A stretch of DNA of 64,000 nt, from NCBI GenBank assembly GCA_025060695.1, contig JANXBH010000005.1:32849-96848 (forward strand). The letters run 5' to 3'. Below the pieces are notes generated by a model that had not been told where the DNA came from, searched no databases, and saw only the letters and a program-made list of their open reading frames with translations. Positions within the stretch are counted from its first letter, which is position 1. Each line of letters starts with the position of its first letter. The position numbers and the translations under genes are program-made. This stretch comes from Caldifarciminota bacterium. GTDB lineage: Bacteria > Hydrothermota > Hydrothermia > LBFQ01 > DSFT01. Of the stretch, positions 10,113 through 63,910 are shown piece by piece.

Positions 10113-10153
10113 TAAATGAAATTTTAAAGCCCATCTTTAAAATTTATTATCAC
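10113..10153. promoter_or_regulatory. Divergent promoters of tRNA-Thr and pdxH
   Basis: Two copies of the CTTTAAAATTT block face outward. On the minus strand TAAAAT at 10126-10121 ends 8 nt before the tRNA-Thr 5' base. On the plus strand TAAAAT at 10138-10143 ends 10 nt before the pdxH ATG. The tRNA end gives an independent reference for a transcription start, so the block is read as a -10 element and the pdxH mRNA as leaderless or nearly so. Confidence 0.7.
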
Positions 10154-10726
10154 ATGATTAATCCAATAAGTTTAGTAAAATCATATTATGAAAAAGCAAA
10201 GGAGCTAAATTTAAAATATTTTGATGCTGCAGTTCTTTGTACTTCGAGGGATAATATACCAGATGGAAGAAATGTGCTAATAAAAGAAATCACAGAAAAT
10301 GGTTTTATATTCTATACAAATTACAATTCAAAAAAAGGAAAAGATTTAGAATTGAATCCACATGCATGTATAGTTTTCTATTGGCAGGATTTAGGAATAC
10401 AAATCAGGATAAGGGGGAAAGTAGAAAAAGTGGAGAATCAAAAATCAATTGAGTATTTTAGAACAAGGCCAAAAGGGAGCCAAATTTCCGCATATATATC
10501 AAAGCAGTCTGAAGAATTAGAAAGCTATGAAAAGTTAGTTGAAATATTTGAAGAATATAGTAAAACATTTAAAGATAGGGAAGTGGAAAAGCCAGAAGAT
10601 TGGGGCGGATATATATTGATACCGTCAGAGATTGAAATATGGGAGGAAAAACCATATAGACTTCACAAAAGGGTATTATACTACTTGGATGGAAATATAT
10701 GGAAAATGAAATACCTATATCCATAG
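10154..10726 (+). CDS. pdxH: Pyridoxine/pyridoxamine 5'-phosphate oxidase
   Basis: FMN enzyme that makes pyridoxal 5'-phosphate from PNP or PMP. At 190 residues it is slightly shorter than the E. coli enzyme, from which it lacks some N-terminal sequence. Family blocks are clear: PDGRNVLIKE, FYTNYNSKKGKDL (FMN phosphate contacts), ACIVFYWQDLGIQIRIRG, FRTRPKGSQISAYISKQSE and a C-terminal W-K-M-K-YLYP end. The start is fixed by the -10 element 10 nt upstream. The 3' end overlaps the following PP-loop gene by 28 nt in another frame. Confidence 0.93.
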   Translation: MINPISLVKSYYEKAKELNLKYFDAAVLCTSRDNIPDGRNVLIKEITENGFIFYTNYNSKKGKDLELNPHACIVFYWQDLGIQIRIRGKVEKVENQKSIEYFRTRPKGSQISAYISKQSEELESYEKLVEIFEEYSKTFKDREVEKPEDWGGYILIPSEIEIWEEKPYRLHKRVLYYLDGNIWKMKYLYP

Positions 10727-11370
10727 TTTTTTCTTTTAGTGGGGGAAAGGACAGTGTCCTTTCTATTTATAAACTATTAAAACAAAACTATAAAATTCAG
10801 TCCCTTATTACAACTATTACTGACATCTATAGCAGAGTATCAATACATGGAATAAGAGAAGAACTAATTATGGAGCAGGCTAATGCTATAGGTATTCCAT
10901 TACATCTAATTTACATTCCGCATAATTGCGTAAATGAGGAATATGAGAGAATTATGCTTGAAAACATGAGCTTTTATAAAAGTTTTGGTGTTAATTATGT
11001 AGGTTTTGGTGATATTTTTTTGGAAGATATTAGAAAATATAGAGAGGAAAATTTAAAAAAAATAGGTATGAAATGCATTTTTCCATTATGGAAGAAGAAT
11101 ACAAAGGATTTAGTTCGTGAATTTATAAGTCTTAAATTTAAGTCTATAGTTGTTGCAGTTGATAGTAATTTGTTAGATATTTCTATGCTTGGTATGGAAT
11201 TTGAAGAGTTTATAAATTTCTTACCAAATAATGTAGATGTTTGTGGAGAAAATGGTGAGTTTCATACTTTTGTATACGATGGTCCAATATTTAAAAAAAG
11301 AGTAAATTTTAGAAAAGGAGATATAGTAATAAAAAACAACTATGGATACATTGATTTATATCCCATTTAG
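10699..11370 (+). CDS. PP-loop ATP pyrophosphatase, diphthine-ammonia ligase-like
   Basis: Adenine-nucleotide alpha-hydrolase superfamily. The N-terminal PP-loop is FSFSGGKDSVLSIYKLL, followed by a Rossmann-type core. The C-terminal block VCGENGEFHTFVYDGPIF is the signature of the Dph6/MJ0570 group (TIGR00290-like). Eukaryotic and archaeal Dph6 amidates diphthine on EF2; bacterial members lack that substrate and their role is unknown. It overlaps pdxH by 28 nt and the next gene by 29 nt, so the three genes are one transcription unit. Assignment to the family is firm; the reaction is not. Confidence 0.8.
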   Translation: MENEIPISIVFSFSGGKDSVLSIYKLLKQNYKIQSLITTITDIYSRVSIHGIREELIMEQANAIGIPLHLIYIPHNCVNEEYERIMLENMSFYKSFGVNYVGFGDIFLEDIRKYREENLKKIGMKCIFPLWKKNTKDLVREFISLKFKSIVVAVDSNLLDISMLGMEFEEFINFLPNNVDVCGENGEFHTFVYDGPIFKKRVNFRKGDIVIKNNYGYIDLYPI

Positions 11371-12445
11371 TCTCTGGGGAATTTCTCCTTTTGTCTCAAA
11401 GAATTTATATTTTCAATATAAAAGTCCAAAAATTAAAAATGTTGAAATTTACAATGTTTTAGACTATGGCTTGGTTTTGAGAAAGGAAATAAAGAAAGCT
11501 GATAGCTTGCCACTTTCCTATATTTATTCTATTCAATTTCCTATAGATAACTATTCGCAATACGGTGTTATATTTTCAAGATATATAAGTAGATTTTTAT
11601 TTTCGTTAGCATACGACTATAATGACAAATTTAAACAAGGTTCATTTTCAATGGATTATAGAAATTTAAATCTGAGTTATTATGAAATCTTTAAATTAGA
11701 ACAGCACTTAAGATTCTTCTACTTAGGCTATTTTGAAATTATAAAGTTAAGCTATCAAATATATAATGACACTAATACATTTTATGCAAAATTTTATAAA
11801 AGCGAACTGATATACTCTAATTTACAGAAAGAAATATATCTCAATTATGGTCTTGATAGGTCGCATTTTTCAATTAGTGGGGGTATATATCGCAATTTCA
11901 AAAAAAACTTTAACTATCTAAATTACGAGTTTTTTCTAAACTTAAAGTATCTTAAAATTTACTCCTCTCTTAAACCATTTCAAATCTTTGATACTATATA
12001 CAAGTACAATGAACACTTACTTAAAATAGATTATAAATTCTTAAGTTTTTCCTATACATACATTGAGAATTTAGTTCCCATTGATACAATGAATTTTTCA
12101 TTTTCATATATAAACTCGTTTTCGGTTTCTATAAAGACAAGTTTTTTAAAATTTACTTCAATGAGAAGTTTTGGAACCCCAATAAAGTGGATTTTAAACT
12201 TTTCTACATTTTACAATTATAAGTTTAAAAAAGATATAACTATAACACCATTTGTTAATGCAAGTTATATAGAAAACGATTTTAAGAAGCCAATTGAAGA
12301 TATATTTATTTTAAATTCTGGAGTAAGTTTAAATTTGTTTGATGGTATATATTTACAAGTTAGCTACTTTTCTAACTTGTTTATTCAAAGTTTATGGAAT
12401 TATAATAGTTATAGTATTTTTCTAAGAATTTCTATGGAAGATTAG
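11342..12445 (+). CDS. Predicted outer-membrane beta-barrel protein, unknown
   Basis: A 367-residue protein made almost entirely of alternating aromatic and polar strands (for example FKQGSFSMDYRNLNLSYYEIF, NFSFSYINSFSVSIKTSF), ending in a strand with [11 protein letters not shown]. This is the texture of an outer-membrane barrel. The start overlaps the previous gene by 29 nt. The N-terminus MDTLIYIPFSLWGISPF is a short, poorly charged signal if it is one. The family is not recognised. It converges with the DUF2723 gene and overlaps its end by 14 nt. Confidence 0.6.
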   Translation: MDTLIYIPFSLWGISPFVSKNLYFQYKSPKIKNVEIYNVLDYGLVLRKEIKKADSLPLSYIYSIQFPIDNYSQYGVIFSRYISRFLFSLAYDYNDKFKQGSFSMDYRNLNLSYYEIFKLEQHLRFFYLGYFEIIKLSYQIYNDTNTFYAKFYKSELIYSNLQKEIYLNYGLDRSHFSISGGIYRNFKKNFNYLNYEFFLNLKYLKIYSSLKPFQIFDTIYKYNEHLLKIDYKFLSFSYTYIENLVPIDTMNFSFSYINSFSVSIKTSFLKFTSMRSFGTPIKWILNFSTFYNYKFKKDITITPFVNASYIENDFKKPIEDIFILNSGVSLNLFDGIYLQVSYFSNLFIQSLWNYNSYSIFLRISMED

Positions 12446-15272
12446 CAAGACTATCTAATTCCATTAATTTTTCTTCTATTCTTGTCATTGCATAGTTAAC
12501 AAATTCAGTATCATTAATTTGCGATATTTTCAATTTTAGTTTATTCAGTAAATTTTTTGCTTCGCTAAATTTCTTCATTTTTATTAAATTATCTGCAATT
12601 TCTAATTCTGCATTGAAAATTTGTAAATAAACATAAATATCTCCTAATGTAATAGCTCTTAAGAACATATTTCCAAATTCAAAATATCTATTGGATTTTT
12701 CGTAGTTGCCTTGAATTTTGTACATATTGGCAACCTGAAATGCTACCATAGCATAGTTTCTATATATCCTTTGATGATTTTCATCCTTGTAAACTGACGT
12801 ATCAAATATACTCCTATATCTAAATATGCTATCGCTCGCAAGTTTATATTTTTTTGCATAGTTTTCAATATAGTAAATTGGGTCAAAATTACCACTTAAT
12901 AAGTAAGTCGTTCTTTCTAAGTTTACTTTAGAAAATTCATCTGTTTCGCTTAAGCTTGTATAGTCATTGTTTATTCTCCAAGCAAGTCCCTCAAGAATAA
13001 ATAGTTTTTTATAGTCCCTATATGCATCAGGATCACATGTAATTGAAAAATATATTGGAACTTTAAACTCTTTTCCTATTACTACTTCTTCTATAAATTC
13101 ATCTCCGTCTTCTAAATAAATCTGTGGTATTTTTACTATTCCTTTTTCAGTTAAAATACTTACGTATTCATCAGTTTTGTATCCTACGCTTGTTGCAATC
13201 ATATCCCTAATTGCTAAATCTCTTAATAGAATAAGTCCATTGTTAGTAGGTATGAATACAGGTAATTTATCAATGTCTTCATTTGAAAGGCTTATAGGTG
13301 CTCCCCATCCCTTAAGCTGCTTAATATACCAGTTTGTATTTAGTAGTGATAAATTTGCATTAAATACATCTCTTCTATATCCTAATACTTCTTGCATGAA
13401 CCATACTGGAAATGTGTCATTGTCTCCATTTGTAAATAGAACAGCTCCGTTAGGAGATTTTATAGGACTAGAAAGTATATTATAAGAAAAATCTTCAGCT
13501 ATATAGTTTTTATGTCTGTCGTTATATTTCCAATTATGATTTATCATATTGTAAACTACCCATACTGTAAATATTGTTATTACTATTGTAGGAATAATTG
13601 AAAGCTTCAAAGACTTCTTTAGTATCCTTGCAACTTCAAGTAGTCCGAAGCCTCCATAGAATATAATAGTCGAATACAGCAGGATATAAAAATATTCCCT
13701 GTCTCTAACTTCCATTTTTACTTGTCCTGTTATTGGATCAGGTGTGATATTTGACGGATTAACAGGTAAGCTTGGTGCATCTGCAGGATTTTGGTATATA
13801 AATAGTCCTACAACTGCTCCTACTAATCCAAATAAATATAACCAAAATAAGGTTCTATTTTCTGAAAAGATAAGTATAAATCCAAATATCATGAGGATAA
13901 GGATAATGTATAAAATTGGTAATGACTGTTCAGTTGTAATATATGGAATTGAGGTAAATTGCCAAGATGTATAAATTCCCAATACTTGAAATTGTTCAAA
14001 TATTGGTATTCTTCTTTCAAAGGGATTTGGAGGACCATATTGTTTTCTTGTTAACATATCCATAAATGCATACCAGTTAGATGGATCACCTTCGTTTATT
14101 CTTACTATAGGATTATGAGTTAAGTAGTGTGCTCTTGATAGTAGCCAAAATTCACATACAATTGCAAGCAAGATAACTATTAGTGCGACACCTTTCCAGT
14201 TTTTATAAAGTTGTGTATAAATGAAAAATAAAGATATGGCTAATAGTCCTGAGGAACTTGCAATAATAAGACTAATTACAGAGCCATGAGCGAAGTGAAA
14301 AAATATGCTAATTATCATAAGTAAGACAATTAAAATTGTAAGAGTATTACTAAAATTAAGTTTTCTAAACTTATGCATTGTCCATATCATTGATATATAA
14401 GCAATTAAGAGCATGATGTTGTATATAAAGATATTTCTCGTAATTTTTGACATTTCATTATAAATCAACTCAGGATTATATGTAATAATATTTACTTGGT
14501 TTGAAAATTTCTGAAAGTTAATAAGGCTATTTTCGTAATTGATATATTGCAAAACATTATAAGAATTAAACCAAATAACAAAAATGCCTAATATAGTTGC
14601 TAATACTCCCCAAAAGTAGTCATCCCATATATACTTTCTTTGAAATATAGCAAGGAATAGGAAAATTCCAATAAATCCAAATAGTGAAATAGCTTGAATG
14701 CCTGTAGCTACTGCTAAAATATATGCAGCTAAGATTAGCCATTTAATAGAACCTGCTTTTTCTCTATTCTTTAACCAAACTAAAACAAAATATACAGCCA
14801 TTACATTTGAGACAAGAGAGGGTGTATAAGTTTCCGCTTCTATAGAGTTAAACCATTGAGAATAGGTAAATGCTTGAGTTAATGCTACAAATATACCAAC
14901 TATATGTACCCAAATGTTTTCGTAGTCCTTATTTTTGAATAAACTAACACTATCGACTACTATCAAGTAAAAGAAACCTGCCATTAAACCACCTGTTAAT
15001 ATAGGTATTAATGTAATTCTTAGAACAATTTGGTTAGCTTCGTATCCTTGAAGGAATTCCTTTATTTCCTTTAATGGTATTGGAAGCATTGAGAAGAATT
15101 TTGCTAATAAAACATATAGTGGTGTCCCTGGAGGATGTGGAATTCCAAGATTATAACTTGATGCTAAGAACTCACCAACATCCCAAAACACAACAGTCGG
15201 TGCTGTAGAAAGAAAGTATATAAATGAAACAAAGAGCGTAATTATAGAAAATATTATCCACTTAACTTTCAT
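12432..15272 (-). CDS. DUF2723 (GT117-like) membrane protein with C-terminal repeats
   Basis: A 946-residue polytopic membrane protein. The N-terminus carries the DUF2723 hallmark [12 protein letters not shown] followed by [17 protein letters not shown]; the acidic pair in this first loop is typical of GT-C glycosyltransferases. About 13 hydrophobic helices follow, then a soluble part (from about residue 590) with [16 protein letters not shown] and a TPR-like helical tail around residues 850-940. DUF2723 proteins are common in Bacteroidota and are proposed protein O-glycosyltransferases; the donor and acceptor here are unknown. It starts in ATGA overlap with clpP and is cotranscribed with clpP and probably dnaN. 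Confidence 0.85.
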
Positions 15273-15895
15273 TTTCTCTTTCTTATAACTTCATCTATCA
15301 TTCCATATTCTCTTGCTTCAAGGGCTGACATGTAGTAATTCCTTTCAGTATCTTTTTGAATTTTTTCATATGACTGTCCTGTATGCTCTGATAAAATTTT
15401 TATTAATAAGTCTTTTAGTCTTAATATTTCCTTTGCTTCAATTTCTATGTCGGTTGCTTGACCTTGAACTCCTCCCCAAGGTTGGTGTATCATTATTCTT
15501 GCATTTGGAAGAGAAAATCTTTTACCTTTCGTTCCTGATGCAAGTAAAACTGCAGCCATCGAAGCTGCTATGCCTATACATATTGTCACTACGTTAGGTT
15601 TTATATACTGTATCGTATCATATATTGCAAGGCCAGCGGTAACATATCCTCCGGGTGAATGAATATATAAATTTATATCTTTCTCAGGGTCTTCTGCTTC
15701 TAAGAATAGTAATTGAGCGACTATAATATTTCCCACGTTGTCATCAATAGCTGTCCCTAAAAATACTATTCTATCCTTTAATAACCTTGAATATATATCA
15801 TATGCCCTTTCTCCTCTTGATGTTTGCTCAATTACATATGGAATATAGTATTGGTCATATTGTTTTTTATATCTCTCTACTTTCCACTTTTTCAT
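15269..15895 (-). CDS. clpP: ATP-dependent Clp protease proteolytic subunit
   Basis: Serine peptidase that forms the barrel of Clp proteases, 208 residues. The strong family blocks [27 protein letters not shown] and [14 protein letters not shown] are present. The catalytic Ser (about 112, in IAASMAAV) and His (about 137, in [10 protein letters not shown]) are intact. The position of the catalytic Asp reads Asn: [10 protein letters not shown] where E. coli has DTERDRFLSA. A Shine-Dalgarno sequence GGAGG lies 6 nt before the ATG, unlike the leaderless genes around it. It follows dnaN after 14 nt and overlaps the DUF2723 gene. Confidence 0.95.
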
Positions 15896-15909
15896 AGTTT
15901 ACCTCCACT

Positions 15910-16974: not shown

Positions 16975-16980
16975 AGTTTT

Positions 16981-16993
16981 GAAAGTTTAAAGC
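16981..16993 (-). promoter_or_regulatory. dnaN promoter (-10 block)
   Basis: GCTTTAAACTTTC on the minus strand. The TAAACT core ends 9 nt before the dnaN ATG, matching the spacing in the other operon-first genes. It is one of two copies with C in place of the last A of TAAAAT; the other precedes the prenyl synthase gene. Confidence 0.55.
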
Positions 16994-17159
16994 TATATAA
17001 CTATGTTTATTCAGAAAGTCTTTTTTATAAGAAAATGGCTATTGCAATAGCAAGAAAAAATACTTGTGTGCCTGAAATAGTTATCAAGAAATTTAGAAGA
17101 TGGATTAAGCTTGAAATTAGCAATCTAAATTCCATACCCTTGAAAGTTTTTATTTTTGT

Positions 17160-17170
17160 GCTTTAAAATC
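17160..17170 (+). promoter_or_regulatory. Candidate leaderless promoter of the FG-GAP gene
   Basis: GCTTTAAAATC with TAAAAT at 17164-17169, 9 nt before an ATG at 17179. That ATG opens a 20-codon frame beginning MLNILINFEV that stops at 17239-17241, in the frame that would need a -1 shift to enter the downstream gene. The rest of the 272-base gap (16975-17246) shows no other convincing gene. Confidence 0.45.
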
Positions 17171-17246
17171 TAAAAGCTATGTTAAATATCCTTATAAATT
17201 TTGAGGTTATCTTTCCTACAAGTCCCTTTTTAGGGAAATAGTAGAG

Positions 17247-19358: not shown

Positions 19359-19360
19359 AA

Positions 19361-19705: not shown

Positions 19706-19739
19706 AGCCAAAATTTTAAAGCTATAAAATTTTAGCAGT
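19706..19739. promoter_or_regulatory. Divergent promoters of oxidase subunit IV and SDR genes
   Basis: The minus-strand TAAAAT at 19718-19713 ends 7 nt before the ATG at 19705. The plus-strand TAAAAT at 19725-19730 (in GCTATAAAATTTT) ends 9 nt before the SDR ATG. The two cores are separated by only six bases. Confidence 0.65.
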
Positions 19740-21233: not shown

Positions 21234-21277
21234 ATTTAGAAAATTTTAAAGGTTATTAGCTTTAAAATTGTTAAACT
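21234..21277. promoter_or_regulatory. Divergent promoters of yajC and the Trm112-like gene
   Basis: The minus-strand TAAAAT at 21248-21243 and the plus-strand TAAAAT at 21263-21268 each end 9 nt before their start codons. The arrangement is symmetric, with identical spacing on both sides. Confidence 0.65.
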
Positions 21278-21451: not shown

Positions 21452-21457
21452 AAGTCT

Positions 21458-26162: not shown

Positions 26163-26175
26163 GATTATACAATAA

Positions 26176-26192
26176 GCTTTAAAATTTTAAGG
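26176..26192. promoter_or_regulatory. Palindromic bidirectional promoter (MFS and TPR genes)
   Basis: GCTTTAAAATTTTAAGG is almost its own reverse complement, so one element contains both TAAAAT cores: plus strand 26180-26185, 9 nt before the TPR gene ATG, and minus strand 26189-26184, about 21 nt before the MFS TTG. No second copy is present in the 32-base gap. Confidence 0.6.
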
Positions 26193-26194
26193 TT

Positions 26195-31633: not shown

Positions 31634-31684
31634 TTATATCAAAAGTTTAAAGTATAAGCACAAAAGCCTTAAAATTTTATATAA
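31634..31684. promoter_or_regulatory. Divergent promoters of the prenyl synthase and DUF4837-like genes
   Basis: The minus-strand ACTTTAAACTTTT (31653-31641) ends its core 10 nt before the prenyl synthase ATG. The plus-strand CCTTAAAATTTTA (31667-31679) ends TAAAAT 9 nt before a TTG, which supports TTG as the start of the lipoprotein gene. Confidence 0.6.
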
Positions 31685-34660: not shown

Positions 34661-34673
34661 TAAAATTTTAAGG
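34661..34673 (-). promoter_or_regulatory. serS promoter (-10 block)
   Basis: CCTTAAAATTTTA on the minus strand, with TAAAAT at 34670-34665, 6 nt before the serS ATG. The 18-base gap to yraN leaves no room for a leader with a ribosome-binding site. Confidence 0.6.
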
Positions 34674-36354: not shown

Positions 36355-36393
36355 GCTATAAATTTTAAAGCCACTTACTTTAAAATTTTATGT
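36355..36393. promoter_or_regulatory. Divergent promoters of dnaB and a lipoprotein gene
   Basis: The minus-strand TAAAAT (36367-36362) and the plus-strand TAAAAT (36381-36386) each end 7 nt before their ATG. This is the most symmetric of the divergent pairs. Confidence 0.65.
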
Positions 36394-39063: not shown

Positions 39064-39094
39064 CCTCCCTTAAGTAAGTTTGATAATTTTAAAG
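39064..39094 (-). promoter_or_regulatory. Promoter and strong ribosome-binding site of the small lipoprotein gene
   Basis: The -10 block GCTTTAAAATT (39094-39084) lies 30 nt before the ATG, and GGGAGG (39069-39064) lies 8 nt before it. This is one of the few leadered transcripts in the window. Confidence 0.6.
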
Positions 39095-43781: not shown

Positions 43782-43794
43782 AAAATTTTAAAGC
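43782..43794 (-). promoter_or_regulatory. nuoA promoter, embedded in the end of the M24 peptidase gene
   Basis: GCTTTAAAATTTT on the minus strand, with TAAAAT at 43790-43785 ending 7 nt before the nuoA ATG. The CTT TAA within it is the last codon and stop of the upstream gene. Confidence 0.6.
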
Positions 43795-45812: not shown

Positions 45813-45862
45813 CGTTCTGAAATTTTAAAGTTTTTAAAATTACTTTAAAATTATAATTCTAT
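45813..45862. promoter_or_regulatory. Divergent promoters of the GIY-YIG-like gene and mnmG
   Basis: The minus-strand TAAAAT (45827-45822) ends 9 nt before its ATG. The plus-strand TAAAAT (45847-45852) ends 10 nt before the mnmG ATG; a second TATAAT overlaps immediately after it. Confidence 0.6.
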
Positions 45863-51454: not shown

Positions 51455-52872
51455 CTTACGCCTCCTTTTATGTTAATAGAAAAACTCTCCATAGGATATC
51501 CAGCTATAAACTCATACGACTTATTTAAAAGGTTCTTAAAATATAGATAAACAAAAAAGCTTTTAAAATCGAAGAACTTATAGTAATCTATAATTAAAAT
51601 TGGCTTTAGCTTTTCACTTGAAGGATAGTAATACCTTGGTCTTGTTGAATAAAACACGAAAGCAATTTCATCCCTTAGGAATTCAGAAAAGTTATAAATG
51701 ACTTTTGCACTAAGATTTAACTTTGGTCTATAAGGTAATACTCTATTTTTTGAAAGCTTATTTTCAATGTAGGATGCGGAAATATTTAAAAATCTAAATT
51801 TTCCATTCAATTCAATACCATAAAGTAATAAGTATTTTTCATTTTTAGCTATCCAATATTCGTTTTCAGGAAGCCAAAGTATAGGATTTTGAATGTATGT
51901 TATAAAAGTATTAATAAATAAATAACTAATTGATGCACTATAGAAGTTTTCAGGGTTTAGGAATTTATCTCCTTTTGCATAGTTTGAACTATAGTAAAGC
52001 TCGGAAAAGTTCGGAAGTCTTCTTTTTATAGACAAGTCTAAAGTAAAACTCCATAAGTCAAAAGTTTTTGAAAAATTATAGTCATATCTAAAAATACCCT
52101 CATCATAAACTAAAGAAATATTAACAAGGTTTTTTATTGGCACTTTTAATATATGTCTTTGATGTATTTTTTTCATACTTACTACTATGCTCTCAAAATA
52201 TTTTAGACTTAAGCTATAACTTTCATATGGTTTTTCGTGGTTATATTGATAAAACTGATAAGAAAAGTAGAATTTTTTATGTGAAGATAGAAAGCCTCTT
52301 ACTCTTTCAAAGTCATTTCCCTCATTTCCATACCCTCTAAGTGGCATACCAAACTTTGCACTATAAAATATTAATTTATAGTCTTTATAATTTACATACC
52401 CCCCAAGCTTGTCTTCAAAATTGTTTTTTCTAAAATACTCTCTATTGAAACTATCCCAATATTTAAAATTGTTCTCATTGTAAGTTCTTTCTATTCCAAA
52501 ATTCCCATAATTTAGAAATATTGAACTTTTTCCATAAGAACCAAGAAGTACTCCTAATTCCCTAATCTTAGAAAATTCTAAGCTTATCCTATAGTCATTT
52601 AAAAAAACTTGTGAATTTGAAATAAGATTTAAAGGTAATACATTAGTATAAAAGAAGCCCCAGATAGGACTATTTAATTTTATGTTTTCTAAATAAATTT
52701 CATTTTGCTTGTCTTCAAGTCCTCTAATTGATACAACTATTCTATTTGAGAGCTCTCTAAATACTATATTTGAACGAACTCTATATACTTCTCTAAAATC
52801 TCCAAACTTATAAACACTATCAATTTTATATAAATACCTAAAAGTATCTATCACTACGATAGTATCAAGCAT
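51448..52872 (-). CDS. btuB: TonB-dependent receptor, BtuB-like (cobalamin uptake)
   Basis: A small TonB-dependent receptor of 474 residues. The N-terminus MLDTIVVID contains a TonB box like that of BtuB (DTLVV). A shortened plug follows: VVSIRGLEDKQNEIYLENIK then the NSPIWGFFYTNVLP segment. The barrel shows RRLPNFSELYYSSNYAKGD with FLNPENFYSASISY, typical of receptors, and YLYFKNLLNKSYEFIAGYPM near the end. An upstream riboswitch ties it to B12. There is no room for a signal peptide: an in-frame TGA stands 12 nt before the ATG. GGAG lies 8 nt before the ATG. Confidence 0.8.
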   Translation of the reverse strand: MLDTIVVIDTFRYLYKIDSVYKFGDFREVYRVRSNIVFRELSNRIVVSIRGLEDKQNEIYLENIKLNSPIWGFFYTNVLPLNLISNSQVFLNDYRISLEFSKIRELGVLLGSYGKSSIFLNYGNFGIERTYNENNFKYWDSFNREYFRKNNFEDKLGGYVNYKDYKLIFYSAKFGMPLRGYGNEGNDFERVRGFLSSHKKFYFSYQFYQYNHEKPYESYSLSLKYFESIVVSMKKIHQRHILKVPIKNLVNISLVYDEGIFRYDYNFSKTFDLWSFTLDLSIKRRLPNFSELYYSSNYAKGDKFLNPENFYSASISYLFINTFITYIQNPILWLPENEYWIAKNEKYLLLYGIELNGKFRFLNISASYIENKLSKNRVLPYRPKLNLSAKVIYNFSEFLRDEIAFVFYSTRPRYYYPSSEKLKPILIIDYYKFFDFKSFFVYLYFKNLLNKSYEFIAGYPMESFSINIKGGVRW

Positions 52873-52886
52873 TATTCTAACTCCTC

Positions 52887-52912
52887 ACCTTCCTGAACCC
52901 TAGCAGGAAGGT
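52887..52912 (-). promoter_or_regulatory. Expression-platform hairpin of the cobalamin riboswitch
   Basis: ACCTTCCTG-CTAGGGTT-CAGGAAGGT is a perfect nine-pair stem placed between the aptamer and the GAGGAG ribosome-binding sequence (52886-52881) of the receptor gene. There is no T tract, which favours control of translation, possibly through loop pairing with the aptamer. Confidence 0.65.
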
Positions 52913-52919
52913 TTTGAAA

Positions 52920-53067
52920 GCTCGTTAGCAGGTCTTCCGGCTTAGGGCAATTTTAGCCCTTGGCCTTCCCATCCTTTAAGGACAGTGGCTCTAAGGGCAA
53001 ACTTACACCCATCACGGCTGCTAGGACAGCGTGGGATTTTCACCCAACTTCCCTGTCGCTAACGAGC
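52920..53067 (-). ncRNA. Cobalamin (B12) riboswitch aptamer
   Basis: On the minus strand the sequence contains, in order, CAGGGAAGTTGGGTGAAAAT, CCCACGCTGTCC, AGCAGCCGTGATGGG, GAGCCACTG, GGGAAGGCC and AAGCCGGAAGACCTGC, the conserved blocks of the cobalamin riboswitch including the B12 box (GCCACTG). A perfect ten-pair P1 stem (GCTCGTTAGC with GCTAACGAGC) closes it at 53067-53058 and 52929-52920. A -10 element (53079-53074) ends six bases before the first P1 base, so the RNA starts almost exactly with the aptamer. Confidence 0.95.
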
Positions 53068-53070
53068 AAT

Positions 53071-53106
53071 AAAATTTTAAAGCATAAAAACTTTAAAATT
53101 TGAATT
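53071..53106. promoter_or_regulatory. Divergent promoters of the B12 riboswitch operon and tig
   Basis: The minus-strand TAAAAT (53079-53074) precedes the riboswitch. The plus-strand TAAAAT (53094-53099) ends 7 nt before the trigger factor ATG. The riboswitch side shows that the same -10 type also drives long-leader transcripts. Confidence 0.65.
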
Positions 53107-55606: not shown

Positions 55607-56644
55607 TAAGTAAAATTTTATAGCTTGGTCGTTATCAAGTAATATATTTATATGTCCCATTTTTCTTCTTTTTTTTCTGTCTTTGAAATACCAATAAAAG
55701 AAAGAATTATTTAATTTTAAAACCTCGTATAAATCTGGCTTTTTTATATCTATAAGATTTATCATAAGTGTTGGTTTTATTAATTGAGGACTCGATAGTG
55801 GTAAATTTAAGATTGCTCTTAAAAATTGTTCAAATTGCGATATCGTGCATCCGTCAAGTGTCCAATGACCACTGTTGTGTGGTCTTGTCGCTATTTCATT
55901 TATTAAAATTTTATCTTTATATACAAAAAACTCAATAGCCATAATACCAATAAGATTTATAGATTTTGAAAGCTCTATTGCAATTTCCTCAATTTCCCTT
56001 TTTAATTTTTCATCTATCTTTGCAGGAGTAATATTATACACCAATATTCCTTCTTTATGAAAATTTTCAGATATAGGAAAAGTTTTAAATTCATATTCGT
56101 TTCTTGCAATTATAATAGAAACCTCTTTTTCAAAGCTTATAAACTCTTCAATAATAACCTCTTCATTTAAATTTTTAATTTCTTCCAAGTCCTCTAATTT
56201 TTTTATATAATACTGACCTTTTCCGTCATATCCAAGTTTTGTAGTTTTTATAACTGCTGGAATAAAATTATTTTCTTTTATGACTTTTTCTACTTCACTA
56301 TAACTGCTTGCTATATAGAATTTTGGGACAGGAAAACCACTTTTACTTAAAAAGCTCTTTTCACTATATCTACTTTGCTTTAGCATGAAATTTTCAAAAC
56401 TTGGTCTAAGTTTATCTTCCATATATTTTACAATTTCTATAGGTAAATGCTCAAACTCAAATGTTATTACGTCGCTATTTTTATAAAATTCCTCATATTG
56501 CTCAAATGTATATATTTTTGCAGGTGTATTAGAAGAAGGGACATTAAGAGTTTTATCTAAAACATTAAAACTAAAGCCCATATAAGTCCCTCTTAATATG
56601 GTCATAAATCCAAGTTGTCCCCCTCCCATTATGCCTATTTTCAT
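55553..56644 (-). CDS. purK: N5-carboxyaminoimidazole ribonucleotide synthase
   Basis: ATP-grasp enzyme of purine synthesis, 363 residues in the open frame. Signature blocks are MKIGIMGGGQLGFM, AVIKTTKLGYDGKGQYYI, VIIEEFISFEKEVSIIIAR and the active-site ATRPHNSGHWTLDGCTISQFEQ (split here as ATRPHNSG and HWTLDGC). The true gene has no stop before tRNA-Leu: the last 16 codons (RVAELVDAVGSEPTVR) are read from the tRNA and the stop is in its variable arm. The tRNA promoter is inside the preceding codons. purE is not adjacent. Confidence 0.9.
   Translation of the reverse strand: MKIGIMGGGQLGFMTILRGTYMGFSFNVLDKTLNVPSSNTPAKIYTFEQYEEFYKNSDVITFEFEHLPIEIVKYMEDKLRPSFENFMLKQSRYSEKSFLSKSGFPVPKFYIASSYSEVEKVIKENNFIPAVIKTTKLGYDGKGQYYIKKLEDLEEIKNLNEEVIIEEFISFEKEVSIIIARNEYEFKTFPISENFHKEGILVYNITPAKIDEKLKREIEEIAIELSKSINLIGIMAIEFFVYKDKILINEIATRPHNSGHWTLDGCTISQFEQFLRAILNLPLSSPQLIKPTLMINLIDIKKPDLYEVLKLNNSFFYWYFKDRKKRRKMGHINILLDNDQAIKFYLARVAELVDAVGSEPTVR
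55607..55622 (-). promoter_or_regulatory. tRNA-Leu promoter, inside purK
   Basis: TATAAAATTTTACTTA just before the tRNA 5' base; TAAAAT (55620-55615) ends exactly 8 nt upstream, the same spacing as at tRNA-Thr. The element lies within purK codons. Confidence 0.65.
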
Positions 56645-56976: not shown

Positions 56977-57038
56977 AGTAAAAATTTTAAAGTCCTGATA
57001 AAAAATGCTTTAAAATTTAAAAAAAAGGGAGGTTCAAA
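56977..57038. promoter_or_regulatory. Divergent promoters of the 111-residue gene and the UspA gene
   Basis: The minus-strand TAAAAT (56989-56984) ends 7 nt before its ATG. The plus-strand TAAAAT (57011-57016) lies 22 nt before the UspA ATG, and a GGGAGG ribosome-binding site (57027-57032) stands 6 nt before that ATG, so the UspA message has a short leader. Confidence 0.65.
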
Positions 57039-57887: not shown

Positions 57888-58510
57888 TGTTTTCAGGTAT
57901 AGTAGAAAGGACTTCAAGTTTAAAGAGCTATAGAAAATATAGTGATGGAATATTTATTGAAATAGAAAATCCATATGAGGAACTTTTTGAAGGTGAAAGC
58001 ATAAGTTTAGATGGTTGTTGCTTAACTGTTGATAAATTTGATAAAGATTCTATATACTTTTTCTTATCACTTGAAACTCTTAAAAGAACGAAATTTTCAA
58101 GAATTGACATGAAGAATCATGTATTTAACTTGGAAAGGTCTTTAACTTTAAATAAACTTATTGGTGGACATTTGGTTTTAGGCCATGTGGATGACGTTGG
58201 AATAGTTCAAGAAGTAAAAAACTTTGAAAATACGAGAATTTTAGAAATTCAATTCAATCCAATATTCAAAAAGTTTACTGTATATAAAGGAAGTATTTGT
58301 GTAGATGGAGTAAGTTTAACTATAAATGAGATAGGTGAAAGTAGTTTTAAAATAGCACTTATTCCAAAAACCATAGAAATTACTAATTTAAAATATTTAA
58401 AAGAAGGGAGCTTTGTAAATTTAGAATTTGATATAATTGCAAAGTATGTAGAAAATCTCATTAATAAAGGCTGGAAATCTTTATTATTACCTCAACACTC
58501 TCAGGAATAA
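57887..58510 (+). CDS. ribE: Riboflavin synthase alpha subunit
   Basis: Dismutates two lumazine molecules to riboflavin, 207 residues. The start MFSGIVER is diagnostic. Two tandem lumazine-binding barrels follow: GESISLDGCCLTVDKFD in the first, and SICVDGVSLTINEIGES in the second, with IGGHLVLGHVDDVG between. It is cotranscribed with the UspA gene (TGATG overlap). Its last 50 bases overlap the convergent cdaR gene. A cobalt or FMN riboswitch is not seen nearby. Confidence 0.93.
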   Translation: MFSGIVERTSSLKSYRKYSDGIFIEIENPYEELFEGESISLDGCCLTVDKFDKDSIYFFLSLETLKRTKFSRIDMKNHVFNLERSLTLNKLIGGHLVLGHVDDVGIVQEVKNFENTRILEIQFNPIFKKFTVYKGSICVDGVSLTINEIGESSFKIALIPKTIEITNLKYLKEGSFVNLEFDIIAKYVENLINKGWKSLLLPQHSQE

Positions 58511-59084
58511 TCTTTATATCTTCAAAAAACTTCTTTAGGGCAACTTTTGTCTTAAAGTCCTCCGTTCTATGTGATATATCTATCTCATTAGTTTCGACAT
58601 ATTTAATGCCGATTATTTGACTTTCAGATGCAATTACATCAACTACTTTAGGTTCAACAATAATACTATCTATAGTATAGCCTTCTTTTGGAGAACCAGT
58701 AATATTTACTCTTACTTCTCTTGGTTTTCTTACAATTTTTTCAACTAATATATTTAAAGTTTCTGGATATACACTAATAAGTTTTATGTGAGGTTCTACT
58801 ATTATATAGTTTCTTATTGGAATTTTGAAATTTCCAGTTTTCATTGGTTCAAAGTTTATATTCAATTGTCTTTTTTTTATTGCTAATGATATTAGGTCTT
58901 TTGCTTTTCCAGAAAGTTCCAAGTATACACTATCAGTATTGGGAACTACTCTAAAATACTCATTTTTTTGAATTAATATGCTATATGCAAATTTTACATT
59001 AATAGATTTATCAAGTTTTGCATATACAAAGATTAAAAGACTAATGAAAATTGATAGTATAAATATGATTCTAGATTCTGCCAT
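58461..59084 (-). CDS. cdaR: YbbR-domain protein (CdaR-like)
   Basis: A 207-residue protein with one N-terminal membrane helix (IIFILSIFISLLIFVYAKL) and YbbR repeats: RVVPNTDSVYLELSGKAKDL, ISVYPETLNILVEKIV, VRVNITGSPKEGYTIDSIIV and EPKVVDVIASESQIIGI. In Gram-positive bacteria CdaR binds and regulates the diadenylate cyclase CdaA. The 14-nt overlap with cdaA supports that pairing here. It overlaps ribE tail to tail by 50 nt. Confidence 0.85.
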   Translation of the reverse strand: MAESRIIFILSIFISLLIFVYAKLDKSINVKFAYSILIQKNEYFRVVPNTDSVYLELSGKAKDLISLAIKKRQLNINFEPMKTGNFKIPIRNYIIVEPHIKLISVYPETLNILVEKIVRKPREVRVNITGSPKEGYTIDSIIVEPKVVDVIASESQIIGIKYVETNEIDISHRTEDFKTKVALKKFFEDIKIIPESVEVIIKISSLY

Positions 59085-59838
59085 TTAGTATTGCCTCTAT
59101 TGTTCCTTTTAATTCCTCTTTCTCAATTGGTGGTGAAAGTTCACCTTTAAATGCAAGCCTTACAGTTTGCCTTTCTTCAGATACAACTATAGATATGGCA
59201 TCTGAAATTTCGGTTATGCCTACCGCTGCTTCGTGTCTTGTCCCAAGTAATGGATCAGGTAGTTTTGAGCTTCTTGGCAATTTTACACTTGCAGATAATA
59301 TTCTATCTTCTTTTATAACTATAGCTCCGTCGTGAAGAGGATTTTCAGGATAAAATATACTCTCTATTAGATAGGATGAAAGCTTTGCATCTATTTCAAT
59401 ACCTTCTTCTAAATAGTCTTGAAGACTCATTCTATTTTGAATAACAATAAGTGCTCCATATCCTCTTTCACTAATTCTATAGCAAGCTTCTATAATTTCA
59501 TCTATTGGAACTTTTGGTCCTTTTGTTAGTGCTCTTAAAATTCTACTTTGACCTATACTTGCAAGTAGTCTTCTAATTTCAGGTTGAAATAGAATTATTA
59601 AAGCTACTAAACCAACGGTCTTAAATGCATTTATTAACAAATTCATAGAAGACAACTTTAATATCTCTGAAATAACAGCTAAAAATACTATAATAAGAAC
59701 GGACAGAAACATATATGGGGCTCTTGTGCCTCTAAATAGCTTTAAAAATTGATATACTATGAAAAGGAGTATTAAAAAGTCAATAATGTCAAAAAAAGAA
59801 AATTCTATACTTTTTAATATCTGCAAAAAGTCATTCAT
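59071..59838 (-). CDS. cdaA: Diadenylate cyclase CdaA
   Basis: Makes the second messenger c-di-AMP from two ATP. The 255-residue protein has three N-terminal membrane helices and a DAC domain. The nucleotide motif PLHDGAIVI is intact. The RHR motif reads RHE in LGTRHEAAVGITEISDAISIVVSEE; the rest of the block is typical. Genes on both sides are on the same strand and overlap (cdaR by 14 nt, propeller by 4 nt). Confidence 0.92.
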   Translation of the reverse strand: MNDFLQILKSIEFSFFDIIDFLILLFIVYQFLKLFRGTRAPYMFLSVLIIVFLAVISEILKLSSMNLLINAFKTVGLVALIILFQPEIRRLLASIGQSRILRALTKGPKVPIDEIIEACYRISERGYGALIVIQNRMSLQDYLEEGIEIDAKLSSYLIESIFYPENPLHDGAIVIKEDRILSASVKLPRSSKLPDPLLGTRHEAAVGITEISDAISIVVSEERQTVRLAFKGELSPPIEKEELKGTIEAILNGRI

Positions 59839-60599
59839 TTCAACTTATATATTTTGCCTCCTCTAAAATCCAATATATAAAAGTAATCTTTATATATTTC
59901 AAAGTCTGAGATTTCAATATTACTATCTTTAAATATAACCCTCCTTTTAAATGTTTCCTTGAAGTTTGAATATTCTAATATTGTCCCACTTTTTAAGCTA
60001 ACTAAAAATCTTTCCTTTTGCTTTATAAGAGTTGTTGGTTCTTCTCCATAGTTGAACCTTATTATAGGTTCAATATTTTTATAGTTTACATTTTCGTATA
60101 CAGGAAATATCCCAATGTCGTTTTCATTTATTTTAAAAATGCCCCATAACTTTCCTTCTTTATCTATTGTCAAACTTAGAGGTTCATAAAAGCCCATAGC
60201 TACGATTTTTATATGGTTGCTTTTATACTTATAAATTGCATCCGATACGGCAATATATAAGTTATCCATTGTATCTTTGGTAAGTTCTATAGTTGAGGTT
60301 GGTTCATATTTGGGTAAATTAGTTATTACATGTTCTAACTTTTTATTATAAAACTTAGAGATTGTTCCTTCATGAGCTATAAATATTGTTTCTTCTATAA
60401 ATTCAATGTCATATGATGGTTGATTTAAGTTTCTAACTGACAAAATAGGATTAGCTTTTAGGTTATCCAATACCCAGAGATTTCCTGTTATTTCAAGAAT
60501 GTAAATTTTATCCTTATGTATTTTAATGTTAATAGGTCTTGAAAATGAAAAATTCGAAGAGTCTACTATTGCTAATGAAAGTAAAGATAATATTTTCAA
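59835..60599 (-). CDS. Beta-propeller-like exported protein, unknown
   Basis: A 254-residue protein with blade-like repeats (INIKIHKDKIYILEITGNLWVLD, EFIEETIFIAHEGTISKFY, KDTMDNLYIAVSDAIYKY, TIDKEGKLWGIFKI) as in NHL or SMP-30-type propellers, with about five blades. The N-terminus MKILSLLSLAIVDSS could be a short signal. It starts at a TTG 9 nt after the shared palindromic -10 element. It precedes cdaA in overlap; a link to c-di-AMP signalling is only positional. Confidence 0.55.
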   Translation of the reverse strand: MKILSLLSLAIVDSSNFSFSRPINIKIHKDKIYILEITGNLWVLDNLKANPILSVRNLNQPSYDIEFIEETIFIAHEGTISKFYNKKLEHVITNLPKYEPTSTIELTKDTMDNLYIAVSDAIYKYKSNHIKIVAMGFYEPLSLTIDKEGKLWGIFKINENDIGIFPVYENVNYKNIEPIIRFNYGEEPTTLIKQKERFLVSLKSGTILEYSNFKETFKRRVIFKDSNIEISDFEIYKDYFYILDFRGGKIYKLK

Positions 60600-60600
60600 G

Positions 60601-60618
60601 GGCTTAAAATTTTAAACC
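60601..60618. promoter_or_regulatory. Palindromic bidirectional promoter (propeller and LptF/G genes)
   Basis: GGCTTAAAATTTTAAACC is nearly self-complementary. The plus TAAAAT (60605-60610) and the minus TAAAAT (60614-60609) share two bases. They end 10 nt before a CTG at 60621 and 9 nt before the TTG at 60599. No other promoter fits in the 21-base gap. Confidence 0.6.
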
Positions 60619-60620
60619 TT

Positions 60621-61706
60621 CTGAAAAAGATTGATTTTTATATATTATCGGAGTTTTTGAAATTATTCTTTATAATTATTTGCGGAGTAATTGTATTATA
60701 TATCGTTGTGAATTTTTTTGAAAATATAGATACTTTTATAAATCCTCAAAGAGGTTTTAAGTTGTATCCTACTATAAAATACTACTTCTATCAAGTGCCT
60801 TATCTTTTTGTCCTCATGTTGCCTGTTGCACTAATGCTATCCTGTTTCTTTTCAATTGGTGATCTTTCAAGAAGATTTGAAATTATGGCTATAAAATCAA
60901 TTGGAATTAGCATGAAGAGAGCTTTCTTTACAATTTATTTATTTTCTATTTTAATGACAGGTATTTCACTTTATTTATATTTGGATGTGGTAGGTGCATG
61001 GGTAAGGAAAGCTGAATGGGTAAAGGCAGTTGAAATTCAAGGAAAGAAGATACCAAAAGAAAAAACCTTTGCAATGAATTTAACCTTTGTAAGCGGAAAT
61101 AAGGTATACTTTTTTAATGCGATTAGTGCTTTAACTAATTCTTCTGATGGTATAGTAATTGTAGAGTTAGAAAAGGAAGGAAAAGTAAAAAGAAGAATAG
61201 ATGCAAGTAGCGGAAAATATATAAACGATGTTTGGGTTTTTTATAATGTAAATGAGAGAACTATAGATGGGAATAAAATAAAGTATGAGTTTTATAAAGA
61301 GAAAATATTTTCTGAAATAGAAGAAAGTCCTTTTGAGTTTTTAACTGAGCTAAAAGAATTACAACAAATGAATTTAAAGGAGTTAACTAATAGGATAGAA
61401 AAACTAAAGAAAGCAGGTTTTGAAATAAATGCGGAATTGACCGAGTTTTATTCAAGGATTTCATTTCCGTTTATGAATATAATTACTATTATTTTATCTT
61501 TGCCAATAGCAGTAGCAATTAAAGGAAGAGGTAAGGCATGGGGATTTGGTATAGCGGTAATTTTTGTTTTTTTATATTGGGGAGTTTCTGAGATGTTTAG
61601 GACACTTGGTATAGTAGGTAAGTTAGAGCCAGTTCTATGTGCATGGATACCTAATTTGATATTTTTAATAATTGGTATTCCGGGATGGTTTAGAATTGAG
61701 AAGTAA
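60621..61706 (+). CDS. LptF/LptG-family permease (YjgP/YjgQ)
   Basis: Inner-membrane permease of the LPS exporter type, 361 residues from the proposed start. The family N-terminus normally reads like MKxLDRYILREFLK; here LKKIDFYILSEFLKLFF continues upstream of the TTG at 60657 and begins at CTG 60621, 10 nt after the -10 element. Other blocks are NFFENIDTFI, LPVALMLSCFFSIGDLSRRFEIMAIKSIG (as two parts), LTEFYSRISFPFMNIITIIL and WIPNLIFLIIG. The partner LptB/LptF/G genes are not adjacent. The TTG at 60657 is the fallback start. Confidence 0.8.
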   Translation: MKKIDFYILSEFLKLFFIIICGVIVLYIVVNFFENIDTFINPQRGFKLYPTIKYYFYQVPYLFVLMLPVALMLSCFFSIGDLSRRFEIMAIKSIGISMKRAFFTIYLFSILMTGISLYLYLDVVGAWVRKAEWVKAVEIQGKKIPKEKTFAMNLTFVSGNKVYFFNAISALTNSSDGIVIVELEKEGKVKRRIDASSGKYINDVWVFYNVNERTIDGNKIKYEFYKEKIFSEIEESPFEFLTELKELQQMNLKELTNRIEKLKKAGFEINAELTEFYSRISFPFMNIITIILSLPIAVAIKGRGKAWGFGIAVIFVFLYWGVSEMFRTLGIVGKLEPVLCAWIPNLIFLIIGIPGWFRIEK

Positions 61707-62757
61707 AGTATGGTTTAGGGTCTACTGCTTCTTTTCCAATTCTTAATTCAAAGTGCATGGGTTCATCTGATACTTTTGCAATTTCTTGTCCCTTAATTAC
61801 ATTATCACCTTTTTTTATACTTATTTTAGTAATTTGACTATAAATAGTATAAAATCCTGAGTGTTCTATAATTATTATGTTTCCATAGCCTTCAATAAAT
61901 CCTACATATACTACACTTCCGCTTTCTGCAGCTCTTACAGGACTATCCTTAGGTGCTTGTATATCAATACCACTATTTTTCGTTTTAGTTCCATATATCT
62001 TGTCGTATACTATGCCAAAATCGTTCACAATTTTTCCATTTACTGGCATAAGTAATGAAATACCTGTGGTTTTCTTTACACTTTCTTTTTTCTTCGATAA
62101 TTCGTTTATAATGCTTTCAAGTTTTTGTTTTGCTCTTTCTAACTCACTTAGGTATACTTGTCTTTCTGTTTTGTTAGTTCTTATTCTTGATAGTCTGTTA
62201 TTTTTCTCCTGCTTTATTCTATTTAGTTCATTTAATGCAATTTCTTCATCTTTTAGTTTTAAATTTAGTGTGTTTATCGTAATGTCAATTTTATTTTGAG
62301 TAATTTCTAATTGTTTTTGTTTTTCTCTTAGGTCATTTACAAGGTTTTTATAATATCTTAGGACTGATAGTAAACTAACTTCAATTCTATAAGATGTATA
62401 AAATGAGCCTGTTTTTAATAGTAATGACCACATGTTTTCTTTTGGAATTTTATATAGTAGTTTTGCAGAAGTGTTCAGCTTTTTTCTTTTTTCCTCTATT
62501 TCTTTTGTAAGCTCCTCTTTCTTTCTATTTAGTAAATCTAATTCATTTTGAAGTTTTTGAACTTGTAGTTTCAATAGTTGTATTTTCTCGTTATATAGCT
62601 GTATTCTTGCATTTAATATTGATAGTTCTTTAAGTATGCTTTTTTCTTGTTTTTTTAGTTCTTCAAGTTTTTCTTGGTTTTCTATAATAAGTCTATTTAT
62701 TTCTTCTAATTGTTTTTGATAGTCCTCAATATTCTGTGCTAATAGCCATAGCAACAC
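61690..62757 (-). CDS. EnvC/NlpD-like LytM-domain protein with coiled coil
   Basis: A long coiled coil (about residues 10-225, EEINRLIIENQEKLEELKKQ onward) precedes a C-terminal LytM (M23) domain. The domain lacks most zinc ligands: KNSGIDI replaces HxGIDI, YSQI replaces YAHL, and PMHFELR replaces HLHFEVR. This is the EnvC pattern, a non-enzymatic activator of amidases in septum splitting. The frame extends to 62793, but GTG 62757 or the adjacent TTG, preceded by GGAGG, gives a signal-like start (VLLWLLAQ). The start lies inside the thiolase gene. Confidence 0.8.
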   Translation of the reverse strand: MLLWLLAQNIEDYQKQLEEINRLIIENQEKLEELKKQEKSILKELSILNARIQLYNEKIQLLKLQVQKLQNELDLLNRKKEELTKEIEEKRKKLNTSAKLLYKIPKENMWSLLLKTGSFYTSYRIEVSLLSVLRYYKNLVNDLREKQKQLEITQNKIDITINTLNLKLKDEEIALNELNRIKQEKNNRLSRIRTNKTERQVYLSELERAKQKLESIINELSKKKESVKKTTGISLLMPVNGKIVNDFGIVYDKIYGTKTKNSGIDIQAPKDSPVRAAESGSVVYVGFIEGYGNIIIIEHSGFYTIYSQITKISIKKGDNVIKGQEIAKVSDEPMHFELRIGKEAVDPKPYFTSQF

Positions 62758-63895
62758 TTCCCCCACCTCCAAGACAAAGCCCTGCAATTCCAAGTTTTTT
62801 ATTTAGCCTTCTTAATGAATATATTAATGTAGTTAATATTCTTGCTCCTGATGCACCAATTGGATGACCAAGTGCAATTGCCCCTCCATTTATATTGAAT
62901 TTATTCCAATTCCATCTTAATTCTTTATAATTTGCTAAGACTTGGCTTGCAAATGCTTCGTTTAGCTCAATTAAATCAAATTCGTCTATATCTTTTATAT
63001 TTAATTTATTCATAAGTTTTCTAAATGCTCCTATAGGTGCAAAAAATAAATCTTTTGGCTCTGTAAAATAGCTTGTATAGTCTAAAATCCATGCTAATGG
63101 TTTTAAATTTAATTCTCTTACTTTTGTTTCTGATGCTAAAACCAGTGCACTTGCTCCATCACTTAAAGGTGGTGCATTTCCTGCAGTTACTTTTCCATCT
63201 TTTTTAAATACAGGTTTTAGTTGAGATAATTTTTCAATACTTGTATCTCTTCTTGGTGTTTCATCTGTATCTATAATTTTATTATCTACTTCTATTGGAA
63301 TAATTTCTTCTTTAAAATAGCCATTGTCAATGGCTTTTATTGCTTTAATATGACTTTCATACGATAACTGGTCCATTTCTTCTCTTGTTATATTTGCTTT
63401 CTCTGCAGTGTATTCTGCTAAATGTCCCATATGCACATTATTATTAAATTGACAACTTAATCCATCGTAAATCATTAAATCTACTATTTCAGTATTTCCG
63501 TATTTAATTCCATTTCTTAAATAAAGTGCGTGTGGTGTATTTGTCATACTTTCCATTCCTCCAGCTACTACTATATGTGCATCTCCTGATTTTATCATTT
63601 GTGCTCCTAACATAACTGCCTTTAGTCCAGAACCACAAACCTGATTTATAGTAATTGCGGGAACTGAACTTGGTATACCTGCAAGAATTGCCGATTGTCT
63701 TGCAGGATTTTGCCCATTTCCTCCTTGCAAAACCTGACCCACTATCACTTCATCTATTAAACTCACTTCAATATTTGCCCTTTTTATTGCTTCTTTTATT
63801 GCGATAGCTCCAAGTTCTACCGCTTTGAATTTTGATAAATTTCCTAAGATTTTTCCTATAGGAGTTCTTACTGCACTTATAATCGCAACACGCAT
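62726..63895 (-). CDS. Acetyl-CoA C-acetyltransferase (thiolase)
   Basis: Two-domain thiolase, about 389 residues. The nucleophilic Cys is in NQVCGSGLKAV, the active-site His in GHPIGASGARI and the second Cys in GLCLGGGGSVAMA. VAGGMESMTNTPH is also typical of biosynthetic or degradative acetyl-CoA acetyltransferases; biosynthesis (acetoacetyl-CoA) versus fatty-acid use cannot be told. A TTG at 63901 is possible, but the ATG at 63895 lies 6 nt after the -10 element and is preferred. It overlaps the EnvC-like gene. Confidence 0.92.
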   Translation of the reverse strand: MRVAIISAVRTPIGKILGNLSKFKAVELGAIAIKEAIKRANIEVSLIDEVIVGQVLQGGNGQNPARQSAILAGIPSSVPAITINQVCGSGLKAVMLGAQMIKSGDAHIVVAGGMESMTNTPHALYLRNGIKYGNTEIVDLMIYDGLSCQFNNNVHMGHLAEYTAEKANITREEMDQLSYESHIKAIKAIDNGYFKEEIIPIEVDNKIIDTDETPRRDTSIEKLSQLKPVFKKDGKVTAGNAPPLSDGASALVLASETKVRELNLKPLAWILDYTSYFTEPKDLFFAPIGAFRKLMNKLNIKDIDEFDLIELNEAFASQVLANYKELRWNWNKFNINGGAIALGHPIGASGARILTTLIYSLRRLNKKLGIAGLCLGGGGSVAMAISTEY

Positions 63896-63899
63896 AAAC

Positions 63900-63910
63900 A
63901 AATTTTAAAG
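63900..63910 (-). promoter_or_regulatory. Thiolase promoter (-10 block)
   Basis: CTTTAAAATTT on the minus strand, with TAAAAT at 63907-63902, 6 nt before the ATG at 63895. Confidence 0.6.

Follow-up and report, generated by a model that had tools for sequence, protein, structure and literature searches.

A probable extended –10 block close to the start codons of most divergent first genes, and the apparent loss of the RNase P ribozyme, in a probably thermophilic bacterial lineage

The stretch of DNA considered here (the window, 64,000 nucleotides, G000:C55:32849-96848) carries an 11-base AT-rich block that lies a few nucleotides before the start codons of first genes and the 5′ ends of tRNA genes. 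The block, of consensus RCTTTAAAATTT, is best explained as the extended –10 element of the housekeeping sigma-70 promoter in the family of the window's genus (f1, genomes G000 to G003, the first being the host). Most operons of the host are probably transcribed without a leader or with a leader of a few bases, and the family appears to have lost the RNase P ribozyme and to rely on the small protein HARP. The explanation as a whole, which takes in predicted transcription starts, presumed leaderless translation and a presumed role of HARP as the working RNase P, is held to be very probable. A preliminary description of the window had proposed a largely leaderless transcriptome, to be checked by a genome-wide motif search scored for distance to start codons.

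The host genome (1.497 Mb in 77 contigs, about 30% GC) was taken nearly whole, in stretches (1,496,388 bases rebuilt), and 1453 genes were called in it by hexamer coding potential alone, so that the called gene starts are independent of the block; the sister genus and the outgroups were examined via pattern counts and selected loci. The gap is, throughout, the number of nucleotides (nt) between the end of the TAAAAT or TAAACT hexamer and the start codon (or the tRNA 5′ end). In this genome CTTTAAAATTT occurs in 352 copies, against 88 for the reversed control pattern. Among 356 divergent first genes, the gap measured from TAAAAT is 6, 7, 8, 9, 10 and 11 nt for 47, 63, 34, 46, 19 and 12 genes, respectively, and at other upstream positions it is seen about one to two times per position. 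With a refined block matrix (false positives in coding sequence, 0.0002 per position), the block is found 5–12 nt before the start codon in 248 of these genes (70%) and 18–59 nt from it in 12%. The motif search thus bears out the proposed enrichment, at 6–11 nt before divergent first genes; the largely leaderless transcriptome stands for the roughly 70% of divergent first genes with the block at leaderless distance, but it is mixed with Shine-Dalgarno (SD)-led genes and riboswitch leaders. Counted over all genes, a block at leaderless distance is found in only about 24% (349/1453), because most genes lie inside operons. Strong sites number 494 genome-wide. Of these, 329 are placed 5–12 nt before a called coding sequence start, 27 before tRNA or transfer-messenger RNA (tmRNA) genes and 72 at other distances from a start, with only 30 inside genes without a start nearby and 36 in intergenic DNA without a start, several of which plainly precede an uncalled ATG.

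Genomes of the Fibrobacteres-Chlorobi-Bacteroidetes (FCB) group have been reported to use AT-rich non-canonical ribosome-binding sites (PMC9581028), and the block could be taken for such a ribosome-binding or Kozak-like signal and not for a promoter. We consider this highly improbable. Of the 38 tRNA/tmRNA genes that do not stand in tandem, 31 carry a block with at most one mismatch 6–17 nt upstream (0.0046 per gene expected by chance), a block lies 28 nt upstream of the tmRNA, and the cobalamin riboswitch model of the window starts within the last bases of another; since none of these is translated from the block, a promoter is favored over an AT-rich ribosome-binding site. In addition, where the leader is at least 18 nt long the block remains far from the ATG and a separate SD site lies near it, and just 10% of the closely spaced operon-internal genes show the block at leaderless distance. 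The FCB type, in which SD sites are absent and the AT-rich signal is tied to translation, is thus not what the genome shows. RpoD has an ordinary, canonical region 2.4. A –35 box was sought by position and by 4-mers and none was visible, the only traces being those of the divergent partner's block. Of the divergent genes, 245 have a forward block; in 183 of these a reverse block lies within 60 bp, the two often touching, and the start codons of back-to-back pairs are 34–56 nt apart (5th–75th percentile; median 44). Co-directional promoters have a reverse block in just 3 of 95 cases, so that the reverse block is the neighbor's promoter and not part of the same one; any –35 element would often fall in the partner's promoter or coding sequence, which fits the missing signal. 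The same pairs speak to a further alternative, that transcription really starts well upstream, with the block serving a regulator or acting as a strong but secondary promoter: between start codons so close together there is no room for other promoters outside the neighboring coding sequence, and no other conserved signal was seen upstream beside the block, so that this account, too, is very unlikely.

Where transcription would start can be read from the leaders of the tRNAs, in which a purine stands at nt 7 after TAAAAT in 76%, C at nt 8 in 66% and T at nt 9–10 in 76–78%. The mRNAs with gaps of 9 and 10 have a purine at nt 7 in 74% and 90%, and in those with a gap of 6 the A of the ATG is itself nt 7. 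A putative purine-pyrimidine-T initiator at nt 7, common to tRNAs and mRNAs, is therefore a better anchor for the starts than the distance to tRNAs, and we infer starts at nt 7–8 after TAAAAT. With such starts, leaders would be of 0–1 nt for most genes with gaps of 5–8 and of about 3–6 nt for gaps of 9–12, and about a third of the genes counted as leaderless probably have a leader of 3–6 nt. The frequency of SD-like motifs is 0% in the leaderless class, 35% among operon-internal genes that are closely spaced and lack a block, and 50% among co-directional genes with an 18–59 nt leader, and the 3′ end of the 16S rRNA keeps the anti-SD sequence GGATCACCTCC intact.

In the mechanism that we propose, RNA polymerase would start about 7 nt past TAAAAT, at the purine of the purine-pyrimidine-T signal, and the start codon of most first genes would lie at that point or 1–6 nt after the transcription start. 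An mRNA without a usable leader must be initiated by the leaderless (5′-AUG) route, and operon-internal genes, as well as first genes whose block is at least 18 nt away, would use SD sites. Promoters without a –35 consensus could stand back to back in divergent pairs. The tRNAs would be made from the same promoter with leaders of about 1–10 nt, most likely removed by HARP and not by an RNA enzyme.

Several observations weigh against this mechanism. The block is lacking in 15% of the 356 divergent first genes, which may have other promoters or represent missed starts or small genes, and the gene starts rest on a simple home-made caller. At nt 7, most mRNAs whose gap is 7 carry T in place of a purine, and their start would need to shift to nt 8. 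That SD motifs are absent from the leaderless class is in part a matter of room, since the block occupies the place where they would lie. Finally, AT-rich DNA might conceal a degenerate –35 element.

In the window, the promoter gaps cited in the preliminary description contain the block, either exact or changed once or twice; the sites are as follows:

10119..10129, minus strand: block; tRNA-Thr(GGT) 5′ end at about 10113, gap 8; back to back with the plus-strand block at 10135
10135..10145, plus strand: block CTTTAAAATTT; serS ATG 10154, gap 10
16982..16992, minus strand: block CTTTAAACTTT; dnaN ATG 16974, gap 9
19711..19721, minus strand: block; ATG 19705, gap 7; upstream TTG 19711 begins on the last base of the block
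19722..19732, plus strand: block CTATAAAATTT; ATG 19740, gap 9; abuts the divergent block
21241..21251, minus strand: block; ATG 21233 (yajC in the preliminary description), gap 9
21260..21270, plus strand: block CTTTAAAATTG; ATG 21278, gap 9
26177..26187, plus strand: block; ATG 26195, gap 9
31642..31652, minus strand: block CTTTAAACTTT; ATG 31633, gap 10
31667..31677, plus strand: block CCTTAAAATTT; TTG 31685, gap 9
34663..34673, minus strand: block CCTTAAAATTT; ATG 34658, gap 6
36360..36370, minus strand: block; ATG 36354, gap 7
36378..36388, plus strand: block; ATG 36394 (named a lipoprotein in the preliminary description), gap 7
39084..39094, minus strand: block CTTTAAAATTA; ATG 39055, leader of 30 nt with GGGAGG, SD-led class
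43783..43793, minus strand: block; ATG 43777, gap 7; upstream TTG 43783 begins on the last base of the block
45820..45830, minus strand: block; ATG 45812, gap 9
45843..45853, plus strand: block CTTTAAAATTA; mnmG ATG 45863, gap 11
52910..53078, minus strand: cobalamin riboswitch (RF00174), leader of the gene at 52872; untranslated transcript, predicted to be driven by the block
53072..53082, minus strand: block at the 5′ end of the cobalamin riboswitch; the aptamer model begins at 53078
53091..53101, plus strand: block; tig ATG 53107, gap 7
55613..55623, minus strand: block CTATAAAATTT; tRNA-Leu(CAG) 5′ end, gap 8
56982..56992, minus strand: block; ATG 56976, gap 7
57008..57018, plus strand: block; ATG 57039/57045, longer leader with GGGAGG, SD-led class
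60607..60617, minus strand: block variant GTTTAAAATTT; TTG 60599, gap 9
63900..63910, minus strand: block; thiolase ATG 63895, gap 6; upstream TTG 63901 begins within the last bases of the block

The window thus contains every class, namely leaderless (36354/36394, two divergent start codons with 39 nt between them), SD-led (39055, 57039) and riboswitch-led (52872), and its exceptions to the short gaps are 57039/57045, 39055, 52872 with its riboswitch leader, and 30396 (gap 17). These sites agree with the claim that the block recurs in nearly every promoter-sized gap. The gaps of 6–10 nt described before are found at nearly all the genes named, but that of mnmG is 11, not 10. An exact distance of 8 nt at both tRNA 5′ ends had been taken as an anchor for the transcription start; it holds for these two tRNAs of the window, but the gaps are mostly 7–17 nt genome-wide, with a mode of 10–12, and the match of the two is therefore sampling luck. 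The choice of ATG 19705, 43777 and 63895 over upstream TTGs is upheld, because each TTG falls within the block or on its border and hence upstream of any transcription start that the block could set.

Two further features of the window were noted. On the plus strand at 7975-8014, an exact block lies within the 3′ end of the open reading frame 6995-8014 and is followed by two SD-like GGAGG motifs and an ATG; it may be an internal promoter of an uncalled small gene. At 63971-64000, on the plus strand and at the very end of the contig, there is a direct repeat (CRISPR-DR2) of the CRISPR (clustered regularly interspaced short palindromic repeats) type, and a CRISPR array may be truncated there. 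As to the origin of the DNA, the nearest named public record to mnmG is the metagenome-assembled genome (MAG) "bacterium isolate JZ-1.bins.166.201901", with 85% amino-acid identity, and JZ-1 is presumably a hot spring; the host lineage is probably an uncultured, thermophilic hot-spring bacterium. In a comparison of promoters with this MAG by footprinting, synteny was broken at most promoters.

Among 41 relatives, the pattern is enriched over the reversed control with any strength only in f1. The sister genus (G002 and G003) has about 50% GC, at which the AT-rich block is rare by chance, and it keeps the predicted layout: 11 places per genome match the block-plus-tRNA pattern, with the block about 8–14 nt before tRNAs, and among the sites listed for G003 the block clusters 6–10 nt before ATG, the longer leaders having GGGAGG or AGGAGG. 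The sister family f2 shows some CTTTAAAATAT before tRNAs and a few ATGs at 7–8 nt, so that the layout is probably older than f1, in a weaker form, and not tied to the change of RNase P.

This change is seen in the absence of both RNase P RNA (rnpB, RF00010) and RnpA (PF00825) from all four f1 genomes; both are present in all nine other relatives first searched. A plain-pattern search for core motifs of RNase P RNA gave only chance-like matches, and the protein-only PRORP (PF16953) has no match at E ≤ 10 in G000 to G012. HARP (TIGR03875, the protein-only RNase P of Aquifex) scores over the curated cut-off in four of four f1 genomes; that of G002 retains the DTS, DSKEDID and DEG motifs, and its match to solved structures of RNA-free RNase P is at 4.9e-37. 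Across the phylum (147 genomes, each of a species), HARP is found in 23, RF00010 in 121 and PF00825 in 128. Both RNase P genes are missing from f1 (4/4) and from a second family, f37 (5/5; G142 to G146), and all nine genomes are HARP-positive; at least one RNase P gene is found in 137 of the remaining 138 genomes, among them the other fourteen HARP-positive ones, the exception being G133, which is 61% complete (the absence of rnpB from f37 and G133 is by tally: of the 26 genomes without a match, 20 are given by name, and only these six appear neither there nor among the listed matches).

The assemblies are draft metagenomes with a completeness of about 81–96%, and the genes might be missing from these and not from the organisms; the absence from nine of nine members of two families, each of them with HARP, beside 137 of 138 other genomes that have at least one gene, makes this very improbable. 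It is about as doubtful that no RNase P is needed because the tRNAs are transcribed leaderless, as in Nanoarchaeum equitans, a view to which the lack of rnpA and rnpB in all members of f1 and the closeness of the block to many tRNAs could lend themselves. With gaps of 7–17 nt most tRNAs would carry a leader, and their sequences do not place them all for transcription from nt 1; several tRNAs follow another with a spacer of a few nt, and one lies directly downstream of the 16S rRNA, all of which need 5′ processing and make such an escape unlikely; and a HARP gene with its catalytic motifs is conserved in the family. As for HARP as the enzyme that would process these tRNAs, only about 1 of 44 tRNA genes, by inspection, encodes CCA; HARP of Hydrogenobacter tolerates leaders of 5–22 nt and cuts CCA-bearing precursors tenfold more slowly (PMC10652100).

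In the window's genus the HARP reading frame is broken at an A9 tract 101 nt past the ATG, at the same place in G000 and G001:

G000:C22:7718-8253, minus strand: split HARP (L149); in the second species, L148 on G001:C105

After the tract HARP continues in the frame given by one extra A and its downstream part is strongly conserved; the frame is intact in G002 and G003. Programmed transcriptional slippage at the A9 tract is the likeliest explanation, and a shared assembly error or a decaying gene is a less likely one. A general slippage system at such tracts was considered and rejected, as there are only 15 runs of nine A in G000 and a simple scan of this genome found no other adjacent split pair at A9 tracts. 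Homopolymer runs of A number 955 for A7, 185 for A8 and 15 for A9, with none longer, and this steep drop suggests selection against slippery tracts.

Drawn together, these observations would describe one probably thermophilic lineage that has remodeled how its RNA 5′ ends are made: a block without a –35 element would leave most operons leaderless and let divergent genes share a gap of about 40 bp, the RNase P ribozyme would have been replaced by HARP twice in the phylum, and HARP itself would be made via programmed A9 slippage. To this combined picture we give an even chance. If true, few bacterial genomes would be as strongly leaderless when judged by their first genes, and the promoter would be so regular that sequence would reveal both the transcription starts and the start codons, which would make the genome a natural test of what bacterial leaderless translation requires. 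Two HARP-only families would be added to the very few lineages without the RNase P ribozyme, and sister families with the ribonucleoprotein (RNP) enzyme only, or with both enzymes, would allow a test of how and why the RNA enzyme was lost.

Extended –10 (TGn) promoters can function without a –35 element. The block resembles them in its extra bases 5′ of the –10 box and in the missing –35, but its extension is RCTT, not TGn, and it would be the dominant promoter of the genome. Bacteria in which a TA-like signal about 10 bp ahead of the start codon marks leaderless genes are already known (Zheng et al., 2011; PMC3160421). Such genes are most frequent in Deinococcus-Thermus, where they average 39% of genes, and almost absent from Bacteroidetes/Chlorobi, where a single genome out of 37 has them, at 2.4% of its genes (PMC3160421); in this the present lineage is not typical of FCB genomes. 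By the features tested from sequence, G000 belongs to the leaderless-gene bacteria. As in Deinococcus-Thermus, Actinobacteria and Aquificae (PMC3160421; a class of its own in GeneMarkS-2, PMC9581028), a –10 box lies near the start codon and such genes are mixed with SD-led ones. Unlike in those groups, to which the lineage does not belong, the putative –10 box is unusually long and nearly invariant (CTTTAAAATTT and not TAnnnT/TAtaaT), it precedes 70% of divergent first genes at leaderless distance, and the divergent promoters abut without a detectable –35.

With Nanoarchaeum equitans the lineage shares a promoter near the tRNA gene and the lack of an RNA-based RNase P, but its predicted tRNA leaders are not zero, it has tandem tRNAs and a protein RNase P is present. 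Bacteria with HARP only are, according to reviews, Aquificaceae, a few Nitrospirae and unclassified genomes (PMC10941002; PMC6380272), and the parts consulted of a survey of over a million genomes name no bacterial lineage like this one (PMC12153264). The likeness to HARP-only Aquificaceae and Nitrospirae lies in the presence of HARP, the absence of rnpA and rnpB, and the need for 5′ processing of tandem tRNAs and of a tRNA in the rRNA operon. The differences are a separate phylum, with two distinct HARP-only families beside relatives that have the RNP enzyme only or both, and, in the window's genus, the interruption of HARP at an A9 tract. Both leaderless genes and bacteria with HARP only were known before, and this lineage is a strong new variant among them.

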